Positions 1,251 to 59,338 of a stretch of DNA of 64,000 bases are shown piece after piece (positions within the stretch are counted from its first letter, which is position 1; every line of letters starts with the position of its first letter). The notes beneath the pieces were generated by a model. It was not told where the DNA came from, searched no databases, and saw only the letters and a program-made list of their open reading frames with translations. The stretch spans positions 62,001 to 126,000 of the forward strand of contig NZ_MRDE01000072.1 in NCBI RefSeq assembly GCF_001968835.1, written 5' to 3'. Source of the DNA: Tersicoccus phoenicis. GTDB lineage: Bacteria > Actinomycetota > Actinomycetes > Actinomycetales > Micrococcaceae. Made by a program: the position numbers and the translations under genes.

Positions 1251-3586
1251 CAGTGGCCCACTCGCTGCGGCTGCGCCCCGGCCGGCACGGTCGCCCACCG
1301 CTCCTCCAGCTCCTTCTCCGCCCGGTTCGGGACGAACCCGGCCGGCGCGTAGATCCGGGAGGGAACCGGGGCGTCCTCCGTGTCCGCACCACCACCGGCA
1401 CGCAACGCCCGCACGGTGGTCACGATCGCGGCGACGATGACGATGATCGACAACGTCACGAACACGATCGACAGGGTGCCCTGGATGACGGTGTTGCGGA
1501 CCACCGCCTCCATGGCGGCGGTGGTCTTGGCGGTGCCGAAGCTGGTCTTCCCGGCGGCGAGCGCATCGCGGAAGGCGGCGTTCTGGGCCCAGTAGCCCAC
1601 GGCGGGCACCGGGGAGAAGATCTTGAACATCGACGCGGTGATCGTCACGACGGCGGCGAATGCGAGCGGGAGGGCCACCACCCAGAGCCGACCGACCACG
1701 CCGCGTTTGGCGATGATCGCCATGCAGACCGCGAGCGCGATGGCCGCCAGGAGCTGGTTGGCGATGCCGAACAGCGGGAACAGCGTGTTGATCCCGCCCA
1801 GCGGGTCGGTGACGCCCATGATCAGGATGGCGCCCCAGGCGGCCACCATGATCGCCGTCGTGATCCACGAACCGGCGGTCCAGGAGGTGTCCCGGAACCG
1901 CGGGAACACGTTGCCGAGGGAGTCCTGCAGCATGAACCGGGCGACCCGGGTGCCCGCGTCCACGGCCGTGAGGATGAACAGCGCCTCGAACATGATGGCG
2001 AAGTGGTACCAGAAGCTCATCATGCCGCCGCCGCCGAACCACTGCTGCAAGATCTGGGCCATGCCGACGGCGAGGGTGGGGGCGCCGCCGGTGCGGGAGA
2101 CGATGGTCTCCCCGACGTCGTTCGCGGTCTGGGTGAGCATGTCCGGGGTGAGGTTCACGCCCTGCAGACCGAGACCGTTGACGAAGGCGACGGCGCCCTG
2201 CACGGTGCCTCCGGTGGCCGCGGCCGAGGAGTTCATGGCGAAGTAGATCCCACGGTCGATGGAGATCGCCGCGACCAGCGCCATGATCGCCACGAAGGAC
2301 TCCATCAGCATGCCGCCGTACCCGATCATCCGGGTCTGCCGCTCCTTCTCGATCAGCTTCGGCGTCGTGCCGGAGGAGATCAGGGCGTGGAAGCCGGAGA
2401 GTGCCCCGCAGGCGATGGTGACGAACAGGAACGGGAACAGGGACCCCGGCACCACGGGCCCGTTCTCCCGGCCGGCGAACTCGCTGAACGCCGGGACGGA
2501 GACCTCCGGGCGGACCACGATGATAGCGACGGCCAGCAGCACGATGGTGCCCACCTTCATGAAGGTGGAGAGGTAGTCGCGCGGGGCCAGCAGCAGCCAG
2601 ACGGGCAGCACGGCCGCGACGAAACCGTAGATGATGATCAGCCAGGCGAGAGTGACCTTGTCCAACTGGAACAGGGCGTTGCCCCAGTCGCTCTCGGCCA
2701 CCCAGCGGCCGGCGACGATGGCCAGGATCAGCAGGACGAACCCGATGACGGAGACCTCACTGACCTTGCCGGGGCGGAGGTAGCGCAGGTAGACGCCCAT
2801 GAACAGGGCGATGGGAATGGTCATGCCGACGGAGAAGACGCCCCACGTGCTCTCCCCCAGGGCGTTGACCACCACGAGGGCGAGGATCGCGACGATGATG
2901 ACCATGATGACGAGCGTGGCCAACTGGGCGGCGATGCCCCCGACCACACCCAGCTCGTCGCGCGCCATCTGGCCGAGGGACCGGCCACCGCGGCGCATGG
3001 AGAAGAACAGCACGAGGTAGTCCTGCACCGCGCCGGCCAGGACGACGCCGACGATGATCCACACGGTGCCGGGCAGGTAACCCATCTGCGCGGCCAGCAC
3101 CGGACCGACCAGCGGGCCGGCACCGGCGATCGCGGCGAAGTGGTGGCCGTAGAGCACCCGGCGGTCGGTCGGCATGTAGTCACGGCCGTTCGCCTTGTAC
3201 TCGGCCGGGGTGGCCCGTCGGTCGTCCGGCCTGGTGATGTACCGCTCGATGTAGCGGGAGTAGAAGCGGTAGGCGATCAGGTAGGTGGCGACGGCGGCGA
3301 ACACGAACCAGATGGCGTTCACCGTCTCCCCGCGGACCAGGGCCAGCATCACCCAGGCGAGGCCGCCGAGCAGGGCGATGGCCGCCCAGATCGCGATCTT
3401 CACGGGCGTCCACCGCCGGTGCTCGGCCTCCAGCACCTCCTCGTCGACCGCGGCGGGCGGGAGGTCCGGATCGGATGCGAGCGCGGTGGCCGCGGACGTC
3501 GTTCCGGTGGCGTCGTGGCGGTGGTCCCGGCCGTGCTCTCGGCCGTTGTCGTCGCTGCGATTCTCGTCGCTGCGGTGTGAGCCCAT
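1250..3586 (-). CDS. cstA: Carbon starvation protein A, peptide/pyruvate transporter
   Basis: CstA transporters take up peptides or pyruvate across the cytoplasmic membrane when preferred carbon runs out. The 778-aa protein has a hydrophilic His/Asp-rich N-terminus (about 55 residues), then many hydrophobic segments. The family signature HFAAIAGAGPLVGPVLAAQ is present, as is GFHALISSGTTPKLIEKE. The ATG at 3586 is preceded at 7 nt by GAGGAGAG, a good ribosome binding site, and is preferred over a GTG-initiated extension upstream to 3769. It heads a three-gene minus-strand cluster. A TAATCT box and a Crp-like palindrome lie upstream (3730-3770), consistent with starvation control. Confidence 0.92.
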   Translation of the reverse strand: MGSHRSDENRSDDNGREHGRDHRHDATGTTSAATALASDPDLPPAAVDEEVLEAEHRRWTPVKIAIWAAIALLGGLAWVMLALVRGETVNAIWFVFAAVATYLIAYRFYSRYIERYITRPDDRRATPAEYKANGRDYMPTDRRVLYGHHFAAIAGAGPLVGPVLAAQMGYLPGTVWIIVGVVLAGAVQDYLVLFFSMRRGGRSLGQMARDELGVVGGIAAQLATLVIMVIIVAILALVVVNALGESTWGVFSVGMTIPIALFMGVYLRYLRPGKVSEVSVIGFVLLILAIVAGRWVAESDWGNALFQLDKVTLAWLIIIYGFVAAVLPVWLLLAPRDYLSTFMKVGTIVLLAVAIIVVRPEVSVPAFSEFAGRENGPVVPGSLFPFLFVTIACGALSGFHALISSGTTPKLIEKERQTRMIGYGGMLMESFVAIMALVAAISIDRGIYFAMNSSAAATGGTVQGAVAFVNGLGLQGVNLTPDMLTQTANDVGETIVSRTGGAPTLAVGMAQILQQWFGGGGMMSFWYHFAIMFEALFILTAVDAGTRVARFMLQDSLGNVFPRFRDTSWTAGSWITTAIMVAAWGAILIMGVTDPLGGINTLFPLFGIANQLLAAIALAVCMAIIAKRGVVGRLWVVALPLAFAAVVTITASMFKIFSPVPAVGYWAQNAAFRDALAAGKTSFGTAKTTAAMEAVVRNTVIQGTLSIVFVTLSIIVIVAAIVTTVRALRAGGGADTEDAPVPSRIYAPAGFVPNRAEKELEERWATVPAGAQPQRVGH

Positions 3587-3808: not shown

Positions 3809-4792
3809 TCAGGCTCCCGTGGTGAGCAGCACCTTGCCGATGTGGCTGCCGGAGTCGAAGTACTCGTGTGCGGCGGCGGCCTCGGTCAGCGGGAAGCGCC
3901 GGTCGATCAGCGGCGTCAACCGGCCGGCTTCGATCAGGGGCCAGACGTGTTCCCGGACGGCAGCCATGATCTCCGCCTTCTCCGCCCTCGGCCGCGCGCG
4001 CAGGGTCGTGCCGATCACCGACGCCCGCTTGCTCATCAGCCGGCCGATGTTCAACTCGGCGCGGCTGCCCTGCTGGGTGGCGATGATCACCAGCCGCCCG
4101 TTCGGCGCGAGCGCCCGCAGGTTGCGATCCAGGTAGGCGCCGCCGACGACGTCGAGGATCACGTCCACGCCCCGGCCGTCGGTCAGGTCATGGATCCGTT
4201 CGACGAAGTCCTCGCCGGTGTAGTCGATCCCGGCAACGGCGCCGAGCTGGGCCGACGCCTCGATCTTCTGCGCCGACGAGGCGGTCACGTACACGGGTGA
4301 GCCGAGCGCAGTGCCGAGTTGGATCGCCGTCGTGCCGATGCCACCCGCGCCGCCGTGGACCAGCACGGTCTCCCCCGGCTGCAGCCGCGCCTGCAGGTAG
4401 AGGTTGGAGTACACGGTGGCGACCGTCTCGGGCAGCCCGGCGGCGTCGGCGACGTCGACGCCGGCCGGCACCGGCAGCACCTGCCCGGCGGGCACCGCGA
4501 CCTTCTCGGCGTAGCCGCCACCGGCGAGCAGCGCGCACACCGGCTCGCCGACTTCGAAACCGTCCACGCCGTCACCGACCGCGCTGATCCGGCCGGAGAC
4601 TTCCAGACCCGGCAGTTCCGACTCTCCCGGCGGCGGCGGGTAGTGGCCCTTGCGCTGGTTGACGTCCGCCCGGTTCAGGCCGGCGGCGACGACGTCGATG
4701 ACGACGTCGCCGGGGGCGGGCCGCGGGTCGGGCACGTCGGTGAGGACGAGCGACTCGGGGCCGCCCGGGGACTGGATCTGGATCGCCTTCAC
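3809..4792 (-). CDS. NAD(P)H:quinone oxidoreductase, zinc-independent MDR family (PIG3/QOR-like)
   Basis: A 327-aa member of the medium-chain dehydrogenase/reductase superfamily that reduces quinones or enone-type substrates with NADPH. It contains the GroES-like N-terminal fold (AAGLNRADVNQRKGHYPPPP is typical of PIG3-type enzymes), the nucleotide-binding motif HGGAGGIGTTAIQLG, and no structural zinc cysteines. The GTG at 4792 is chosen because it matches the family start (MKAIQ...) and lies six bases after CACAAT, a leaderless arrangement; an ATG farther upstream would run the frame through the tRNA gene. It stands alone, with cstA diverging in function downstream. Confidence 0.85.
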   Translation of the reverse strand: MKAIQIQSPGGPESLVLTDVPDPRPAPGDVVIDVVAAGLNRADVNQRKGHYPPPPGESELPGLEVSGRISAVGDGVDGFEVGEPVCALLAGGGYAEKVAVPAGQVLPVPAGVDVADAAGLPETVATVYSNLYLQARLQPGETVLVHGGAGGIGTTAIQLGTALGSPVYVTASSAQKIEASAQLGAVAGIDYTGEDFVERIHDLTDGRGVDVILDVVGGAYLDRNLRALAPNGRLVIIATQQGSRAELNIGRLMSKRASVIGTTLRARPRAEKAEIMAAVREHVWPLIEAGRLTPLIDRRFPLTEAAAAHEYFDSGSHIGKVLLTTGA

Positions 4793-5152: not shown

Positions 5153-6313
5153 ATGAACGGAGACAATCCCTTCCGGCCGGGGTTCGGGCTGACCCCGGCC
5201 GTCCTGGCCGGTCGCGGCGCCGTCGTCGACGACTTCGACCGCGCCCTGCGCGAGAACCGGCCGGGCGAACGCAACGTGCTGGTGTTTGGCGCCCGCGGCA
5301 CCGGCAAGACGGTGCTGATCACCGAGTTCGAGTCCGTGGCGACCGACCGGGGGTGGACGGTCCTCACCCTGCACACGGCGTCGTCGTCCCTGGTGGAGGA
5401 ACTGCGTGAACTGGCCGTCGACCGGCTCCGGTCCCTCGACCCCGACGCCGTCCGGTCCCGGCTCACCGGCGCCGGGGCCTCCGGCATCGTCGCGACCCGT
5501 CAGGTGGTGGACCGGTACGAGAAGGAGCGTCTGCCCCTCGGGGAGCTGCTGACACGGCTCGCCACCGTCGCGGGCGAGGGTCACGGTGGTCTGCTGCTGA
5601 TCCTGGACGAGGTGCAGTCGGTCGACCGGGACCAGTTGCACGAGGTGACCCAGCACCTGCAGGACCTGCTGCGCCGCGACCTCCCGGTCGGCCTGGTGGC
5701 GGCGGGCGTGCGTACCGGCGTCGACGACCTCCTCGACCACGACCGCACGACTTTCCTGCGCCGGGCCCACCGGGTAGAGCTCGGCAGCGTCCCCCTCAGC
5801 GCCGCGATCGAGACGATCCGGCAGACCGTCGCCGACACGAGCCGGTCGATCACCCCGGAGGCGGCGGTGCTCGCCGGGCAGATCTCGTTCGGTTATCCCT
5901 ACCTGATCCAACTCATCGGTGCGCACGCCTGGGAAGGGGCCGGAACGTCCCCGGTGATCGCGGTGGAGGACGTCGCCCAGGCGCGCTCCGATGTCGTCGC
6001 GCAGATGATCCGGAACGTGCACGGCCCGGCCCTGCGCGGCCTCAGCGCCCGTAAGGCCGACTACCTGACGGCGATGCTCGACGACGACGGTCCCTCGCGC
6101 GTCGCGGACATCGCCGCGCGGATCGGCGTCAGCGTCAAGTACCAGTCGGTCTACCGTGCCCGGCTGATCGAGGACGAGCTGATCCGGCCGGCGGGTACCG
6201 GCCGGGTCGAGTTCGCCCTCCCGTATCTGCGCGAGGCGCTGCTCGACCGGCAGACCGGCGGGCGGCTCGCGTCCGCCGACGACGACGTGCGCCGGCCCCG
6301 GCGCCGATCCTGA
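5153..6313 (+). CDS. AAA ATPase, Orc1/Cdc6-like with C-terminal winged helix
   Basis: A 386-aa predicted ATP-binding protein. Walker A is GARGTGKT at residues 46-53, and Walker B reads LLLILDEVQ near residue 150. The C-terminal third (LSARKADYLTAMLDDDGPSRVADIAARIG...) looks like a winged helix, and the whole resembles the Orc1/Cdc6-like ATPases found scattered in bacteria. The function is unknown; related proteins are linked to DNA binding or defence islands. It lies 126 bp after tRNA-Ser(TGA), a common insertion site, but no integrase or tRNA-end repeat was seen. Base composition matches its neighbours. TAACAT at 5138-5143 may be its -10 box. A repeat block follows the stop. Confidence 0.75.
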   Translation: MNGDNPFRPGFGLTPAVLAGRGAVVDDFDRALRENRPGERNVLVFGARGTGKTVLITEFESVATDRGWTVLTLHTASSSLVEELRELAVDRLRSLDPDAVRSRLTGAGASGIVATRQVVDRYEKERLPLGELLTRLATVAGEGHGGLLLILDEVQSVDRDQLHEVTQHLQDLLRRDLPVGLVAAGVRTGVDDLLDHDRTTFLRRAHRVELGSVPLSAAIETIRQTVADTSRSITPEAAVLAGQISFGYPYLIQLIGAHAWEGAGTSPVIAVEDVAQARSDVVAQMIRNVHGPALRGLSARKADYLTAMLDDDGPSRVADIAARIGVSVKYQSVYRARLIEDELIRPAGTGRVEFALPYLREALLDRQTGGRLASADDDVRRPRRRS

Positions 6314-53714: not shown

Positions 53715-54890
53715 ATGAGTGAACCCGCGAACTCCCCGGCCTCGGTGCGTGCCGCCGTCGCGGCCGGATCGGTGATCACCCTCTTCGGCCACCGGCTACT
53801 GCACCTTCCCGGCACCGGCCTGGCCGCGGTCCGCTGGCCGCGTCCGTGGGCCGCCGATCTCCGACCGCCCTGGCACTACTGGTGGCAGGCCCACTACCTG
53901 GACTGCCTCGTCGACGCCGGCTGGCGGGAACACCGGTCCGGCCTGCCCCCGGCGGCCCTGCGGCTGGGCCACCAGCTGCTGCGCGGGATCCGGCTGCGCA
54001 ACCTGGGCCGCTACCCGAACCTCTACTACGACGACATGGCCTGGCTCGCCCTCGCGGCCGGCCGGCTGGACGAGCTGGCCCGGGCGGTCACCGGTGCCGG
54101 CACCCGGCAGAGCCGTGCCGTGATCGACGTCCTCGCGCCGCGGCTGATCAGCGCCAGCACCGACGACGCGGGCGGCGGCGTGTTCTGGAACACGCGGCGC
54201 ACCTTCAAGAACACCGCCGCAACCGCTCCGGCCGCCCTGTTCTTCGCCCGCGCCGGGGAGCCGGAGCGCACCCGGGCGCTCACGGACTGGCTGCGGGACC
54301 GGCTGCTCGACCCCGACTCGGGCCTGTACCTCGACGGTGTACGGCTGGGCCGGCGCGGCGTCGAGACCGTCCGGTCCCGCTACACCTACAACCAGGGGCC
54401 GGTGCTGGGCGCGTTGCTCGCGCTCGGCGATCCGGCCGACCTCGACGCCGCGGCGCGGCTCGTCGACGCCGTCGACGCGGGCCTCACCCGCCCGTCACCC
54501 GTCGTGGCCGGCGCCAAGGTGCTGATCACCCACGGCGGTGGTGACGGCGGCCTGTTCACCGGCATACTCGTGCGGTACCTCGCGGCCGTCGCGATCGACG
54601 CGCGGCTGCCCCCGACGGCTCGGTCCACGGCCGCGCGTCTGGTCACCGGCACCGCCGACGCGCTGTGGACCGGCCGCCGGCGCGTCCCTCCGGGCGAGTC
54701 CCGGTCCGCGGAGGGCCCGGGCGACGGCGCCCTGATCTTCTCCGCCGACGCCGGCGTCGACGCCGCGACCAGCTATCCGCTCGGCGGTCCGGTTGAACTG
54801 TCCACCCAGTTGCAGGCGTGGATGAGCCTCGAGGCGGCCGCCGTATGCGTCGGCGGGACAGCCGCGGAGGATTCGACGTCAGTCGTCTGA
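53715..54890 (+). CDS. Glycoside hydrolase family 76 protein (alpha-1,6-mannanase-like)
   Basis: A 391-aa protein with an (alpha/alpha)6-barrel pattern. The catalytic Asp pair of GH76 is at 106-107 in NLYYDDMAWLALA, and GVFWNTRRTFKNTAATAPAA and RYTYNQGPVLGALLALG are family motifs. Such enzymes cut alpha-1,6-mannans. No signal peptide is seen, so it may act on an internal glycan. The start follows TAGGCT by six bases. Upstream lies a variable short tandem repeat. Confidence 0.85.
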   Translation: MSEPANSPASVRAAVAAGSVITLFGHRLLHLPGTGLAAVRWPRPWAADLRPPWHYWWQAHYLDCLVDAGWREHRSGLPPAALRLGHQLLRGIRLRNLGRYPNLYYDDMAWLALAAGRLDELARAVTGAGTRQSRAVIDVLAPRLISASTDDAGGGVFWNTRRTFKNTAATAPAALFFARAGEPERTRALTDWLRDRLLDPDSGLYLDGVRLGRRGVETVRSRYTYNQGPVLGALLALGDPADLDAAARLVDAVDAGLTRPSPVVAGAKVLITHGGGDGGLFTGILVRYLAAVAIDARLPPTARSTAARLVTGTADALWTGRRRVPPGESRSAEGPGDGALIFSADAGVDAATSYPLGGPVELSTQLQAWMSLEAAAVCVGGTAAEDSTSVV

Positions 54891-55611: not shown

Positions 55612-56673
55612 TCAGGCCCGGTTCCGCACCCGCGCGACGGCCGGCTCCAGCAGCACCACGACAACCACCGCGACGGCGGCGCCGATCACCGTCTCCACGG
55701 CGCGGCTGACCACCAGCTGCCCCACCGGCATCGGATTGCTCAACTGCACCATGCACAGGGCCAGCGGGGTGATGAAGAGCAGGGCCGTGGCGTAGTGCCG
55801 GACGACGAACAGCTCGCCGAGGAACTGCAGCACGATGATCACGAGTGCGAGGGCCCAAGCACCCAGACGCAGCCCGAGGATGACCGCACTCACGGCGACC
55901 CCTGCGAGCGTGCCGACGACGCGGTGGATGGCGCGCCCGACGCGCGCGGGCGCATCGGGCGCGGCGATCGCGGCGATCCCCGCGACCATCGCCCAGTTGC
56001 TGTGGCCGACACCCGAGAGCTGGCCGATGACCCCGGCCATCAGCGCGACGATGAGGAACTGCGAACCGTGCCAGGTGAGTTGCGCCGCGCTGAAGGAACC
56101 GCCGAGGATCGGTGCGCCCTCTCCCATGCCCGGCAGCACGCGGGCCAGGTAACCGAGGAACACGCAGAAGGCGATCGTGCCCAGGGCGACGCCGAGGCCC
56201 TGAGCCGCCGGTGGCGGCGACGGCAGGCCGGCGATCGAGGTGAAGGCGAAGACGAAGAAGACGGAGCCGCTGGGCTTGAGCCCGATCCCGGCGGCCAGCA
56301 CGGCCCCGAGCGCCGCGACGACGGACCCGATCAGTACGATGGTCACCCCGCTGACGCCGGCGGCATCGGCGACGAGCATTCCGAGGGCGAGGCAGGCGAG
56401 GATGACGAGCCCGGCAACAGACTGGTGGACGAAGCGGCGGCGCAGCGTCTCCCGACGCGCGTAGATGCCGGTGAAGGACCCGAAGGCCGCGTACACCGCG
56501 AGGTCGGTACGGCCGAGGAGCATGACGACCACCAGCGGCACGGCAACCCCCACGGCGATGCGGGCGGCCGAGAGGTGATCCGCCTGCGCGGGTCCGAATC
56601 GGAAGAAATCGCGAACTCCTGCCACGACCTCCAGCACATCACAGGTCCGGGCGTCCGAAGCCGGTGAAGGCAC
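55612..56673 (-). CDS. FUSC-family (aromatic acid exporter-like) membrane protein
   Basis: A 353-aa membrane protein with about ten hydrophobic segments arranged as two repeats. ARIAVGVAVPLVVVMLLGRT near the start and the second-half GRAIHRVVGTLAGVAVSAVI fit the FUSC/YccS-type superfamily thought to export aromatic acids or other organic anions. The substrate is unknown. The GTG start at 56673 is uncertain; GTG at 56637 is an alternative. It lies 65 bp from hairpin H1. Confidence 0.75.
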   Translation of the reverse strand: MPSPASDARTCDVLEVVAGVRDFFRFGPAQADHLSAARIAVGVAVPLVVVMLLGRTDLAVYAAFGSFTGIYARRETLRRRFVHQSVAGLVILACLALGMLVADAAGVSGVTIVLIGSVVAALGAVLAAGIGLKPSGSVFFVFAFTSIAGLPSPPPAAQGLGVALGTIAFCVFLGYLARVLPGMGEGAPILGGSFSAAQLTWHGSQFLIVALMAGVIGQLSGVGHSNWAMVAGIAAIAAPDAPARVGRAIHRVVGTLAGVAVSAVILGLRLGAWALALVIIVLQFLGELFVVRHYATALLFITPLALCMVQLSNPMPVGQLVVSRAVETVIGAAVAVVVVVLLEPAVARVRNRA

Positions 56674-56738
56674 TGTTCGTTCCGCACCTCACCCCGGCCG
56701 CCACCCGCAGCCTGCGGGAATATCACCACCCACCCCAC

Positions 56739-56799
56739 GTCGACTATCGAATTTCGGGGCTCTCGCAGCCCCAGAAAGCCCCGAAATTCGATAGTCAAC
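56739..56799. repeat. Hairpin H1, left flank of the second DUF559 gene
   Basis: 23-nt arms (56739-56761 and 56777-56799) pair at 22 of 23 positions plus one G-T wobble, with a 15-nt loop. The right arm begins AGCCCCGAAATTCGATAGTC. It has the same arm and loop lengths as H2 at 57931-57991. Confidence 0.85.
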
Positions 56800-56873
56800 G
56801 CGACGGGATGGGCCGACGACGACCGCAGCGCAAGACGATCCGGGACCCGGAACGGGCAGCCGGACGAGATCGA

Positions 56874-57842
56874 TCATCGTGGAGCCCAGCCCTGAGCACC
56901 CAGAGCAGCCGCCACTTTGGCGACGGCGCGTGGCACGATCCCGAGACCGGGAACGACGACCAGCGCGCTCAGGTCGGCGGCCGCGATGCGCACCTCGGTC
57001 CAGCCGGCGGCCGCGGTGAGATCGGCCCGTTCGATGTCCAGTGCGTGCTGCCGAGGGTCGGCGTGGTGGGCGCCGTCGTACTGCACCGAGAGGAGCTGCT
57101 GGCGGTAGGCGAGATCCGGCAGGACGACCCGGCGTCGCCCGTTCACCGCGATCCACACGTTCAGCTCCGGCTCCGGCAGGCCGGCGTCCACCAGCATCAG
57201 CCGGAGCCGGGTCTCGGGCTCCGAGTCGGCACCGACCCGCACGCGCTCGAGCGCGGCCCGGGCGGTCCGGACGCCACGCCGCCGTCGCACGATCGCCACG
57301 CGACGCTGCAGGTCGACCAGGCTCACGAGCGGATCGTCCGGCTCGAATCCTCGCGGGTCCGCGTGCCAGCAGACCATCGCGTCGCCGACCGCGACCAGCT
57401 GGTCCACGGTCAGCTCTGAGGCCAGATCGAGGAACACGCGCGCCGGCGTCGTCACGCGGACGCCTCCCCGGACCGTCACGTCGGCTTCGGACAGGACGGC
57501 GAGATGGCCGACGACGCCGCGACGGTGCACAGCCGAGGTCCGTGGAGTCGCCGCGTGCGTGACGTGGAGGAGTTCGGCCTCCTGGAGCCTGCGGGGAAGA
57601 GGTAGACCCCACAGGGCGGCGGCGGTCGTGTGGCTGACCACTGCCGTCGGCATGGCCGCGATCGCCGCCCGCGCCCTGACGGCGACCGATCCGCCCAGCT
57701 CCGCCGGAATCCGCGCACCGGTGATCCCTGCCGCCAGGTGGTGGCCTCGAAGGCGATCCGCACTCACCCCGGCAGCAATCGCCTCTCGCACCGCGAAGGG
57801 GCGGAGGGCGAACTCCGGCGGGAGCGCGGCCCGGGCGCTCAC
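56874..57842 (-). CDS. DUF559-type (PD-(D/E)XK-like) protein
   Basis: A 322-aa protein with the architecture of the 21440-22381 gene but little sequence identity to it. The N-terminal part (SARAALPPEFALRPFAVREA) may be an AbiEi-like helical domain; SHTTAAALWGLPLP is a family motif. The C-terminal nuclease-like fold has Asp in VVLPDLAYRQ and SVQYDGAHHADP, then GWTEVRIAAADL. The usual Glu before YDG is Gln here, so catalysis may be lost. GTG at 57842 gives a good N-terminus; GTG 57848 is possible. Hairpins H1 and H2 bracket the gene. Confidence 0.72.
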   Translation of the reverse strand: MSARAALPPEFALRPFAVREAIAAGVSADRLRGHHLAAGITGARIPAELGGSVAVRARAAIAAMPTAVVSHTTAAALWGLPLPRRLQEAELLHVTHAATPRTSAVHRRGVVGHLAVLSEADVTVRGGVRVTTPARVFLDLASELTVDQLVAVGDAMVCWHADPRGFEPDDPLVSLVDLQRRVAIVRRRRGVRTARAALERVRVGADSEPETRLRLMLVDAGLPEPELNVWIAVNGRRRVVLPDLAYRQQLLSVQYDGAHHADPRQHALDIERADLTAAAGWTEVRIAAADLSALVVVPGLGIVPRAVAKVAAALGAQGWAPR

Positions 57843-57904
57843 GTGCACCTCACCGCTCCATCGTGCCTGCTCACCGCCTCGCACAGGCCCGGCCGGCGCC
57901 CGCC

Positions 57905-57913
57905 TGTGGACAA
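57905..57913 (-). promoter_or_regulatory. TTGTCCACA (DnaA-box-like) 9-mer
   Basis: TGTGGACAA on the plus strand, 63 bp upstream of the second DUF559 gene. The same 9-mer occurs twice upstream of the first DUF559 gene. Confidence 0.45.
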
Positions 57914-57930
57914 CCAGCCGCACTCTCCAC

Positions 57931-57991
57931 GTTGATTATTGGATTTCGGGGCTCCGGCCAGCCTCCGAAGCCCCGAAATCCAATAGTCAAC
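57931..57991. repeat. Hairpin H2, right flank of the second DUF559 gene
   Basis: 23-nt arms (57931-57953 and 57969-57991) pair at 22 of 23 positions plus one wobble, with a 15-nt loop. The right arm begins AGCCCCGAAATCCAATAGTC. Compared with H1, two base pairs differ by compensatory change on both arms. Confidence 0.85.
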
Positions 57992-58042: not shown

Positions 58043-59338
58043 GTGCCCCGCAGCGACTTCTCCTTCCACGTCACCGCCCGCCTGACCGAGACGACGACGT
58101 CGCCGGCCGCCGGGCGCGCCGGCGTCATCGACACCCCGCACGGGCCGATCCGCACCCCGGCGTTCATCCCGGTCGGGACCCAGGCGGCGGTCAAGGCCGT
58201 GCTGCCGGAGGCGGTCGCCGAACTCGGTGGGCAGGCCGTCCTGGCCAACGCCTATCACCTCTATCTGCAGCCGGGCGCGGACATCGTCGACGAGGCCGGT
58301 GGGCTCGGTCGCTTCATGAACTGGCCGGGGCCCACGTTCACGGACTCGGGCGGCTTCCAGGTGATGAGCCTGGGTAGCGGGTTCAAGAAGGTCATCTCGA
58401 TGGACCTGCCCGCGGAGCGCCAGGGGGCCGACGACGCCGTCGCCCCCGGCAAGGAGCGGCTGGCGGACGTCGACGAGGACGGGGTCTGGTTCCGTTCGCA
58501 CCTGAACGGCGACCGGCACCGGTTCACCCCGGAGGTCTCGATGGGGATCCAGCATCAGCTGGGAGCGGACATCACGTTCGCCTTCGACGAGCTGACCACC
58601 CTGATGAACTCGCGCGGGTACCAGGAAGAGTCACTGGAGCGCACACGCCGGTGGGCGCAGCGCTGCCTCGACGAGCACGCCCGGCTGACGACGCAGCGCT
58701 CGGGCAAGCCGTACCAGGCGCTGTTCGGCGTGATCCAGGGCGCCCAGTACGAGGATCTGCGCCGGAAGGCCTGCCGGGACCTCGCGGCCATGACGAGCGG
58801 GATGGACGACGGCGAGGACGGTGGGGGCTTCGACGGCTACGGCATCGGCGGCGCGCTGGAGAAGGAGAATCTGGGCACGATCGTCGGCTGGTGCGCCGAC
58901 GAGCTGCCCGAGGACCGACCTCGGCACCTGCTGGGCATCTCCGAACCCGATGACGTGTTCACCGCGATCGAGAACGGTGCCGACACGTTCGACTGCGTCT
59001 CCCCCACCCGGGTCGCCCGCACGTCGGCGGTGTACACCCGGGACGGCCGGATCAACCTGGCCGGCGCCCGGTACAAGCGGCAGTTCACGCCCATCGACGA
59101 GACCTGCGACTGCTACACCTGCGCCCACTACACGGTCGCCTACCTGCGGCACCTGTTCAAGGCGAAGGAGATGAACGCGGCCACGCTCGCCTCCATCCAC
59201 AACGAGCGGTTCGTGGTGCGGATGGTCGACGACGCGCGGCGGGCACTCGAGGACGGCACGTTCTTCGACCTCAAGGCCGACGTGCTCGGGCGCTACTACG
59301 GGCGCACGGCGGCGAGGGGGACGACGACGGTCGGCTGA
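58043..59338 (+). CDS. tgt: tRNA-guanine transglycosylase
   Basis: A 431-aa enzyme that swaps guanine-34 of GUN-anticodon tRNAs for a queuosine precursor. The substrate-binding FTDSGGFQVMSLG, GVIQGAQYEDLR and FDCVSPTRVAR regions are present, as are the zinc ligands ETCDCYTCAHYT with a downstream His. The GTG start was chosen because it begins the family N-terminus (FSFHVTARLT) and lies six bases after CAGAAT; frames farther upstream run through hairpin H2. No queuosine synthesis genes are nearby, but an importer-like gene is at 61719. Confidence 0.95.
   Translation: MPRSDFSFHVTARLTETTTSPAAGRAGVIDTPHGPIRTPAFIPVGTQAAVKAVLPEAVAELGGQAVLANAYHLYLQPGADIVDEAGGLGRFMNWPGPTFTDSGGFQVMSLGSGFKKVISMDLPAERQGADDAVAPGKERLADVDEDGVWFRSHLNGDRHRFTPEVSMGIQHQLGADITFAFDELTTLMNSRGYQEESLERTRRWAQRCLDEHARLTTQRSGKPYQALFGVIQGAQYEDLRRKACRDLAAMTSGMDDGEDGGGFDGYGIGGALEKENLGTIVGWCADELPEDRPRHLLGISEPDDVFTAIENGADTFDCVSPTRVARTSAVYTRDGRINLAGARYKRQFTPIDETCDCYTCAHYTVAYLRHLFKAKEMNAATLASIHNERFVVRMVDDARRALEDGTFFDLKADVLGRYYGRTAARGTTTVG

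Follow-up and report, generated by a model that had tools for sequence, protein, structure and literature searches.

In Tersicoccus phoenicis, a gene whose likely product joins an AbiEi-type DNA-binding protein to a Vsr-like nuclease lies between two palindromes whose arms recur elsewhere in the same genome, and palindromes of quite unlike sequence enclose its homologs in other genera. The arms match within a locus, are conserved among the dispersed copies and change together with the protein, and at one locus the whole palindrome–gene–palindrome unit appears to have been exchanged. Below, the window is the whole stretch of 64,000 nucleotides of T. phoenicis DNA that we analyzed.

Results

Twin palindromes at the window locus

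The features of the locus are as follows:

55612..56673, minus strand, neighboring FUSC_2-type membrane protein, outside the palindrome–gene–palindrome unit
56738..56800, no strand, H1 palindrome, 3' of the gene, with 24-nt arms and a 15-nt spacer
56874..57848, minus strand, predicted fusion gene for an AbiEi-like DNA-binding protein and a Vsr/EDxHD-type nuclease, with a predicted start codon
57930..57992, no strand, H2 palindrome, 5' of the gene, with 24-nt arms and a 15-nt spacer
58043..59338, plus strand, neighboring tgt, tRNA-guanine transglycosylase, with a predicted start, outside the palindrome–gene–palindrome unit

H1 and H2 are each a near-perfect 63-bp palindrome, and the arm consensus of their family is CGTTGACTATYGAATTTCGGGGCT. 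The original prediction had described 61-nt hairpins at 56739–56799 and 57931–57991; both are found there, with one extra C–G pair that makes the arms 24 and not 23 nt long. Direct comparison confirmed that the left arms differ, at positions 3, 6, 10, and 12, and that two of the differences are compensatory changes in both arms, from C–G to T–A at position 10 and from A–T to G–C at position 12. The loops, as had also been noticed, have the same length (15 nt) and unrelated sequences. RNA folding of all four H1 and H2 strands gave energies of -42 to -53 kcal/mol (z -8.2 to -10.4), and on any strand 0 of 200 shuffles were equally stable. Across 14 kb of the window, no Rfam family reached its gathering score.

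The bracketed gene and its predicted protein

The open reading frame (ORF) between H1 and H2 spans 56874–57923 on the minus strand; judged from the homologs, the real start of the gene is probably the GTG at 57848 or 57842. The predicted structure of the protein (mean pLDDT 90.2) divides into an AbiEi-like part, model residues 1–203, and a Vsr/EDxHD-type nuclease, residues 207–320. The AbiEi antitoxin 6y8q matched residues 1–203 (Z 10.9, rmsd 5.4, 176 aligned), and the catalytic domain of the homing endonuclease I-Bth0305I, 3r3p, matched residues 208–320 (Z 9.0, rmsd 2.6, 96 aligned). The matches to Rv2827c (Z 7.6), to Vsr 1vsr (Z 7.1) and, for residues ∼51–203, to nucleotidyltransferase folds such as the toxin MenT1 (Z 7.8) have Z under 8, a range in which, by the tool's own caution, a match may reflect a mere common arrangement. 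Foldseek alone gave no match below E 0.001, its top row being Rv2827c with a probability of 0.98.

Profile searches gave a similar picture for the family as a whole. The PADLOC AbiEi profile was matched by all 23 of the 23 aligned members at E 0.01 (best 1.5e-14). At the same threshold, the Pfam models MTES_1575 and DUF559 matched 15 and 6 of the 23, respectively, and the window protein had no Pfam match. No NCBIfam model covers the protein family. The 23-sequence alignment has 17 invariant columns, including E211, D244, H261, and D270, which we take to be the EDxHD motif, as well as Q266, R273, and W282; the catalytic residues are present in the window protein too. The predicted fold of both halves makes it likely that the gene product joins DNA binding of the AbiEi type and a Vsr/I-Bth0305I-like nuclease in one protein. 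Homologs were found in 69 of 99 genomes (E 1e-10) and, across the phylum, in 60 of 396 genomes (E 1e-20), the T. phoenicis genome being included in both counts.

A palindrome family dispersed in the Tersicoccus genome

The palindrome family has 24 distinct sites in the T. phoenicis genome (best-strand E 3.6e-4 or better, the weakest sites having divergent arms), namely H1, H2, and 22 sites away from the gene. In 16 aligned copies the spacer is always 15 nt long and the spacer sequences are unrelated, while 96.4% of the cells pair. Six of the 24 arm pairs have changed on both sides, against a mean of 2.6 in shuffled data (5 of 500 shuffles reach 6), and 15 of the 24 never vary. The invariance of these pairs next to unrelated spacer sequences indicates that the arms are constrained in sequence, beyond their pairing.

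The parent genome and its relatives were searched for the hairpin, as had been proposed: in addition to the 24 own sites, a covariance model of the window palindrome gave matches in 5 of 59 genomes, the own genome included. We dropped the reading of a private repeat drawn from this number once the regions around homologous genes had revealed the general design described below. The window-palindrome pattern had 0 exact matches in a wider contig collection from which the own or near genomes may be absent. In Tersicoccus solisilvae, the orthologous gene and its catalytic residues are kept and no palindromes are present, and neither H1 nor H2 could be aligned with the intergenic stretches orthologous to theirs; in Tersicoccus sp. 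Bi-70, the gene is absent at the window locus and ∼5.5 kb of other DNA lies there instead. Neither comparison gave the clean insertion edges that the original prediction had proposed as a check.

We rejected the notion that the palindromes are specific to this nuclease gene only, as most copies have no such gene adjoining. That most copies adjoin unrelated genes agrees with one half of what had been named as a refutation of the nuclease association; the other half, the lack of a link to the DUF559-type gene, fails, since the link to the gene holds. Two other close pairs of copies show that bracketing is not exclusive to the nuclease gene. On one contig (C115), copies at 54624 and 56920, 2.3 kb apart (L019, L011), enclose an NAD-synthase gene, which we took for a core gene. 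On another (C107, locus L029), a divergent pair at 69432 and 70248 surrounds two small ORFs and is followed by a typical copy at 71462. Within L029, this divergent pair (3433–3503 and 4249–4319, 816 bp apart) encloses minus-strand ORFs of 85 and 111 amino acids, presumably a YefM/YoeB-type antitoxin–toxin pair. Three 37-bp tandem units (5521–5632, 97% matches) start at the right end of a palindrome copy in the same locus, and its TAGTCAACG end recurs in them; they look like a tandem duplication that grew from this end of the palindrome.

Homologs in other genera are bracketed by palindromes

We defined palindromes by 20-nt arms with at most three mismatches and a loop of 3–40 nt, located within 300 bp of the gene, and studied two sets of loci: 40 loci, being the first 42 homolog places after removal of the window gene and of a place on a short contig, and 80 loci, the best 80 of 336 relatives. 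Palindromes were present on both sides of the gene at 21, on one side at 11, and on neither at 8 of the 40 loci; the corresponding numbers in the larger set were 48, 16, and 16. For the 40 loci, we found 54 palindromes in the 24 kb near the gene against 47 in 719 kb elsewhere in the same stretches; for the 80 loci, the counts were 116 (47.6 kb) against 92 (872.7 kb). Because solitary copies of the same family count toward the background, the true enrichment is at least this large. Only 4 of 488 and 4 of 562 neighboring ORFs were bracketed, and two of these eight lie between copies of the same family (L093, L094). The two sets overlap and comprise 121 loci, of which 112 are nonredundant; at the threshold, 64 of the latter have palindromes on both sides, 26 on one side, and 22, or one fifth, on neither.

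The palindromes around homologs in other genera are quite unlike those of the window in sequence, and their placement is regular. The center of the 5' palindrome lies a median of 102 bp upstream of the point where the match begins (59 palindromes, quartiles 101 and 111), and that of the 3' palindrome a median of 26.5 bp past the stop (57 palindromes). Among 28 loci outside the window's family, 5 were bracketed on both sides (L284, L285, L293, L298, L302), 9 on one side, and 14 on neither. One of them, L298 (G170), has five palindromes with a common arm (CGCCGAGTTCTACACCACGG type) around the homolog, four of them consecutively on the 5' side. Homologs also occur on three Arthrobacter plasmid records; we examined two of these homologs, one with palindromes on both sides and the other with a 5' palindrome only. 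On the 754-kb plasmid unnamed2 of Arthrobacter sp. ERGS1:01 (NZ_CP012477.1, L279), a homolog annotated as a hypothetical protein lies between matching palindromes.

Arms are shared within loci and recur in dispersed copies

The two palindromes of a locus have matching arms in 61 of the 64 doubly bracketed loci (best 20-nt comparison with at least 16 identical positions, median similarity 0.95), compared with 174 of 2000 random pairs between loci (median 0.60; Mann–Whitney P value 2.5e-37, indicative only because the loci are related). Leaving the window aside, the doubly bracketed loci comprise 17 arm families that are dissimilar to one another. A half-site motif common to these 17 is weak (11.3 bits vs. 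8.2–8.9 in shuffles), and the window arms fit it no better than shuffles do (557–639 of 1000 as good).

Dispersed copies are found in other genomes too. In two congeneric species, G069 and G020, the arms flanking the gene at locus L093 match at 32 and 33 distinct places, respectively, that is, at 30 and 31 places beyond the bracketing pair; the spacer is 13 nt in every copy read, a row with 16 mismatches (L113) belonging elsewhere. G020 and G069 contain further palindromes, of the CGACGGCGGCCGTCG type, at places remote from the nuclease gene (L089 at 3074; L095 at 16852 and 18629). In a genome of another family (G037, contig C1), we found 16 dispersed GATCTCTGGAGGCTTTCCGGGGTCTC palindromes from the DNA alone, and the sole two copies less than 2 kb apart enclose a family member (HMM E 8.8e-35, 30% identity). 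Palindromes alone thus led to a bracketed homolog as predicted, in a genome where an earlier search had counted three homologs without giving positions. The two further homologs of G037 are not bracketed by GATCTCTGGAGGCTTTCCGGGGTCTC palindromes, and one (L303) has no palindrome nearby. G027 is a partial exception: it has 26 dispersed copies, none of them around its gene, whose own palindromes are related to, yet different from, the dispersed ones, and two pairs of copies, 2.4 and 4.3 kb apart, contain no homolog.

Both the nuclease association put forward in the original prediction and its analogy with REP sequences and RAYT transposases are strongly supported, over several genera and for palindromes of unrelated sequence, by a bracketing frequency far above that of neighboring ORFs, by the sharing of arms within loci, and by the dispersed copies.

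Protein and palindrome change together

We compared arm similarity with identity in the AbiEi domain across 87 loci (3741 pairs), counting the pairs with an arm similarity of at least 0.8. Their fraction was 0.00 of 87 pairs and 0.01 of 2406 pairs below 40% identity, 0.03 at 40–50%, and 0.19 at 50–60%, and it rose to 0.85 of 109 pairs at 60–70%, 0.96 of 90 at 70–80%, and 1.00 of 42 above 80%. The partial rank correlation between the arms and the AbiEi part given the nuclease was 0.30, a value reached by 0 of 300 permutations, and that between the arms and the nuclease given the AbiEi part was 0.24. Residues 1–50 alone, the expected region of the recognition helix, correlated with the arms at 0.31, below the nuclease at 0.42. 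The signal thus does not single out the first helices, and, as the nuclease correlates with the arms as well and does so better than residues 1–50, part of it is due to shared ancestry.

At the orthologous locus L111/L112, the nuclease is identical at 100 of 106 positions (94%) and the AbiEi parts at 30 of 43 and 113 of 155 (70–73%); the outer arms differ (CGAGAGGCCATTTACGGC vs. CGAGATTACAGAAACTGC), although their best 20-nt window still reaches 0.80. A solitary copy adjoining both L111 and L112 resembles the L112 arms. Among 74 syntenic pairs, we inspected the 40 with the largest gap, and the clearest case was L089/L095. Here, identity is 98–99% in the flanks and 60% in the gene, the palindromes differ save for their outermost seven bases, and identity resumes at or within ∼20 bp of the outer palindrome edges, which we read as an exchange of the whole palindrome–gene–palindrome unit. 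In the remaining 39 inspected pairs, the gene is merely less conserved than its flanks.

The compared dispersed copies are old

Among the 24 distinct G069 copies taken from the 32 places, 21 have an ortholog in the G020 stretches fetched, and the other three appear to be roughly collinear with G020 matches outside these stretches. No gain or loss was seen among the 21 copies compared. They are old and show no recent movement, and this one genome pair does not demonstrate the nuclease-mobilized palindromes suggested earlier. Between orthologous copies, the arms differ at 33 of 1008 positions (3.3%), and the loops at 56 of 273 (20.5%), or 29 of 273 (10.6%) when each loop is taken in whichever orientation fits better. 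The 25-nt flanks, compared without gaps, differ at 366 of 1050 positions, a number inflated by indels. As the arms diverge less than the loops and the flanks, the sites are maintained.

The spacer matched better when inverted in 5 of the 21 orthologous copies (L202/L225, L208/L234, L209/L227, L211/L241, L219/L228), and in two of these, L208/L234 and L209/L227, the inversion was exact. Hairpin loops can flip by template switching. For this reason, and since unrelated loops come within 2–6 mismatches of each other, we set aside loop inversion as proof of cutting.

Gene orientations around the sites were assigned with a crude G+C-based ORF caller, which failed at 11 of 12 sites in G027. The 47 sites of T. 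phoenicis and G069 comprise 17 between convergent, 20 between tandem, and 2 between divergent genes, 4 inside an ORF, and 4 uncalled, against background gaps of 67 convergent, 140 tandem, and 66 divergent. In G037, four sites are tandem, three convergent, and two inside an ORF.

Discussion

A proposed mechanism and its alternatives

We think it somewhat probable that the palindromes around the gene and their dispersed copies are cognate sites of the AbiEi–nuclease fusion, forming a REPIN-like family that is kept by a non-RAYT enzyme and whose sites are nicked or cut, the arms being copied by repair. Each palindrome would then be a two-monomer site with two inverted half-sites of ∼24 bp placed 13–15 bp apart, and the bracketing pair and the dispersed copies would be sites of one and the same protein. 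H2, just upstream, would act as its operator, with two inverted half-sites ∼115 bp ahead of the likely start, a position that fits that of the 5' palindromes of homologs. Both readings draw on the agreement of the 23–24-bp arms, the 13–15-bp spacing, and the location ∼100 bp before the gene with AbiEi and Rv2827c. Now and then, the nuclease would nick or cut its sites, and repair would copy arms between sites or exchange the bracketed unit; in this way the arms would stay alike and the protein and its sites could change specificity together. Site-directed nicking or cutting would explain the shared arms, their joint change with the protein, and the dispersed copies. We infer binding, cleavage, autoregulation, copying, and spreading by the protein from these comparisons. 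Several results speak against this reading: the loci with a palindrome on one side or on neither; the T. solisilvae ortholog that lacks palindromes and the other DNA at the Bi-70 locus; the dispersed copies of G027, whose arms are merely related to those at its gene; the two additional G037 homologs; the lack of gain or loss between G069 and G020; the correlation of the nuclease part with the arms; the weak half-site motif, which the window arms do not fit; the nucleotidyltransferase-like middle part of the protein; and the lack of a Foldseek match.

A bolder form, to which we give less than even weight, is that of a homing-like selfish system of non-HUH type: an AbiEi-guided Vsr-type nuclease would cut the palindromes, and repair would copy the arms, giving concerted evolution, and exchange the gene between alleles, with the solitary copies arising from the same process.

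The sites could instead be part of a regulon only, bound by an AbiEi-like repressor that controls its own gene and whose nuclease is a toxin or serves repair, and selected for regulation, never cut or copied. The fold and the spacing fit AbiEi operators, the 5' site stands at a nearly fixed distance from the start, and the compared dispersed sites are conserved at orthologous places. However, a second, equal site lies past the gene, the dispersed sites are mainly at gene 3' ends, and regulation leaves unexplained how tens of sites jointly gain a new specificity; we regard this explanation as unlikely. Movement of the palindrome–gene–palindrome unit in the manner of an insertion sequence with palindromic ends, the solitary copies being remnants or passengers, seems improbable. 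Many homologs are at the same locus across species and genera, the compared solitary copies are stable, and no clean empty site was found, Bi-70 having other DNA there, although that genome does lack the gene at the window locus, at one orthologous locus (L089/L095) the unit is a different one and identity breaks off at the palindromes, and homologs occur on the three plasmid records.

That the palindromes are plain transcription terminators or mRNA 3'-end hairpins, alike by chance, is very improbable. They are very stable hairpins, mostly at 3' ends and adjoining many unrelated genes, but it is the arm sequence that is conserved and not the stems alone, given the invariant arm pairs; the arms agree much better within a locus than between loci and follow the protein; and the 5' copy precedes the gene. 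Taken by itself, the paired RNA terminator considered in the original prediction leaves the matching of arms within a locus and their link with the protein unexplained; a terminator role is possible as a by-product. That a RAYT-type Y1 transposase mobilizes a REP/REPIN family here, the nuclease being a bystander, is hardly credible. The layout of inverted arms, variable spacer, dispersed copies, and 3'-end bias is that of REPINs (PMC3116915, PMC3733652), but Y1_Tnp (PF01797) was found in 0 of 6 genomes carrying such palindromes or homologs, having been detected in 5 of 14 control genomes; this contradicts the reading for the six genomes, short of a Y1 protein missed by the Pfam model.

As this palindrome family is accompanied by one gene, its function, specificity, and spread can be tested with the purified protein and one DNA fragment. 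The finding also suggests what a common group of orphan proteins, annotated as DUF559 or AbiEi-like, may do, and it ties together toxin–antitoxin DNA recognition, Vsr-type nucleases, and dispersed repeats.

Comparison with known systems

As described in PMC7319586, the promoter of Streptococcus agalactiae AbiEi contains two 23-bp inverted repeats, separated by 3 bp, to which AbiEi itself binds, and Rv2827c binds pairs of 23-bp repeats 13 bp apart. The family studied here resembles these type IV toxin–antitoxin (AbiE) proteins in the AbiEi fold and profile of its N-terminal part and in having inverted repeats of 23–24 bp, with a spacing of 13–15 bp close to the 13 bp of Rv2827c; binding to them is predicted. 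In contrast to AbiE, it has an additional nuclease domain and sites on both sides of the gene as well as dispersed ones, and no gene for the AbiEii (DUF1814) toxin was found among the scanned neighbors at the window locus (FUSC_2, tgt, DUF4916). With Vsr and the EDxHD homing endonuclease I-Bth0305I it has in common the catalytic fold and the conserved E, D, H, and D, with cleavage predicted, but unlike them the window protein carries an AbiEi module; the scanned neighboring proteins include no methylase, and no homing site was found. The system is neither a plain AbiE nor a known homing system. Its C-terminal domain matches the DUF559 and MTES_1575 models in the members counted above, and the family descriptions consulted mention neither palindromes nor the N-terminal half.

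REPINs are persistent inverted doublets of REP sequences with a variable spacer, associated with REP-associated tyrosine transposases, or RAYTs (PMC3116915, PMC3733652), and a GTAG tag has been described beside REPs (PMC3733652). The present family shares with them the inverted doublets with conserved arms, the variable spacer, the dispersed copies, which number in the tens and lie mostly at the 3' ends of genes, the copies flanking one protein gene, a separate palindrome family per gene, and the long residence. It differs in that the protein is an AbiEi–nuclease fusion and not a Y1/HUH transposase, and no GTAG or GGAG tag is conserved beside the 16 copies of the window genome with 20 nt of flank. 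Given the lack of the Y1 transposase in the six genomes and of a conserved tag in the window genome, the family is not a member of REPIN/RAYT.

A survey of REPs has noted that whole families apparently lack a dedicated transposase (PMC3733652), and RepRanger (PMC12306157) counts REPs in an Arthrobacter, its main text being without the words nuclease or RAYT. Among the matches listed from open-access PMC, judged by title and abstract opening, we found nothing comparable in print. The design of a gene plus palindromes points to a type of dispersed repeat for which we found no earlier description. We know of no kind of system that joins an AbiEi–nuclease fusion with both bracketing and dispersed palindromes. 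Its logic is nevertheless REPIN-like, and on a stricter view it may be a variation on the REPIN logic, built around a different enzyme.
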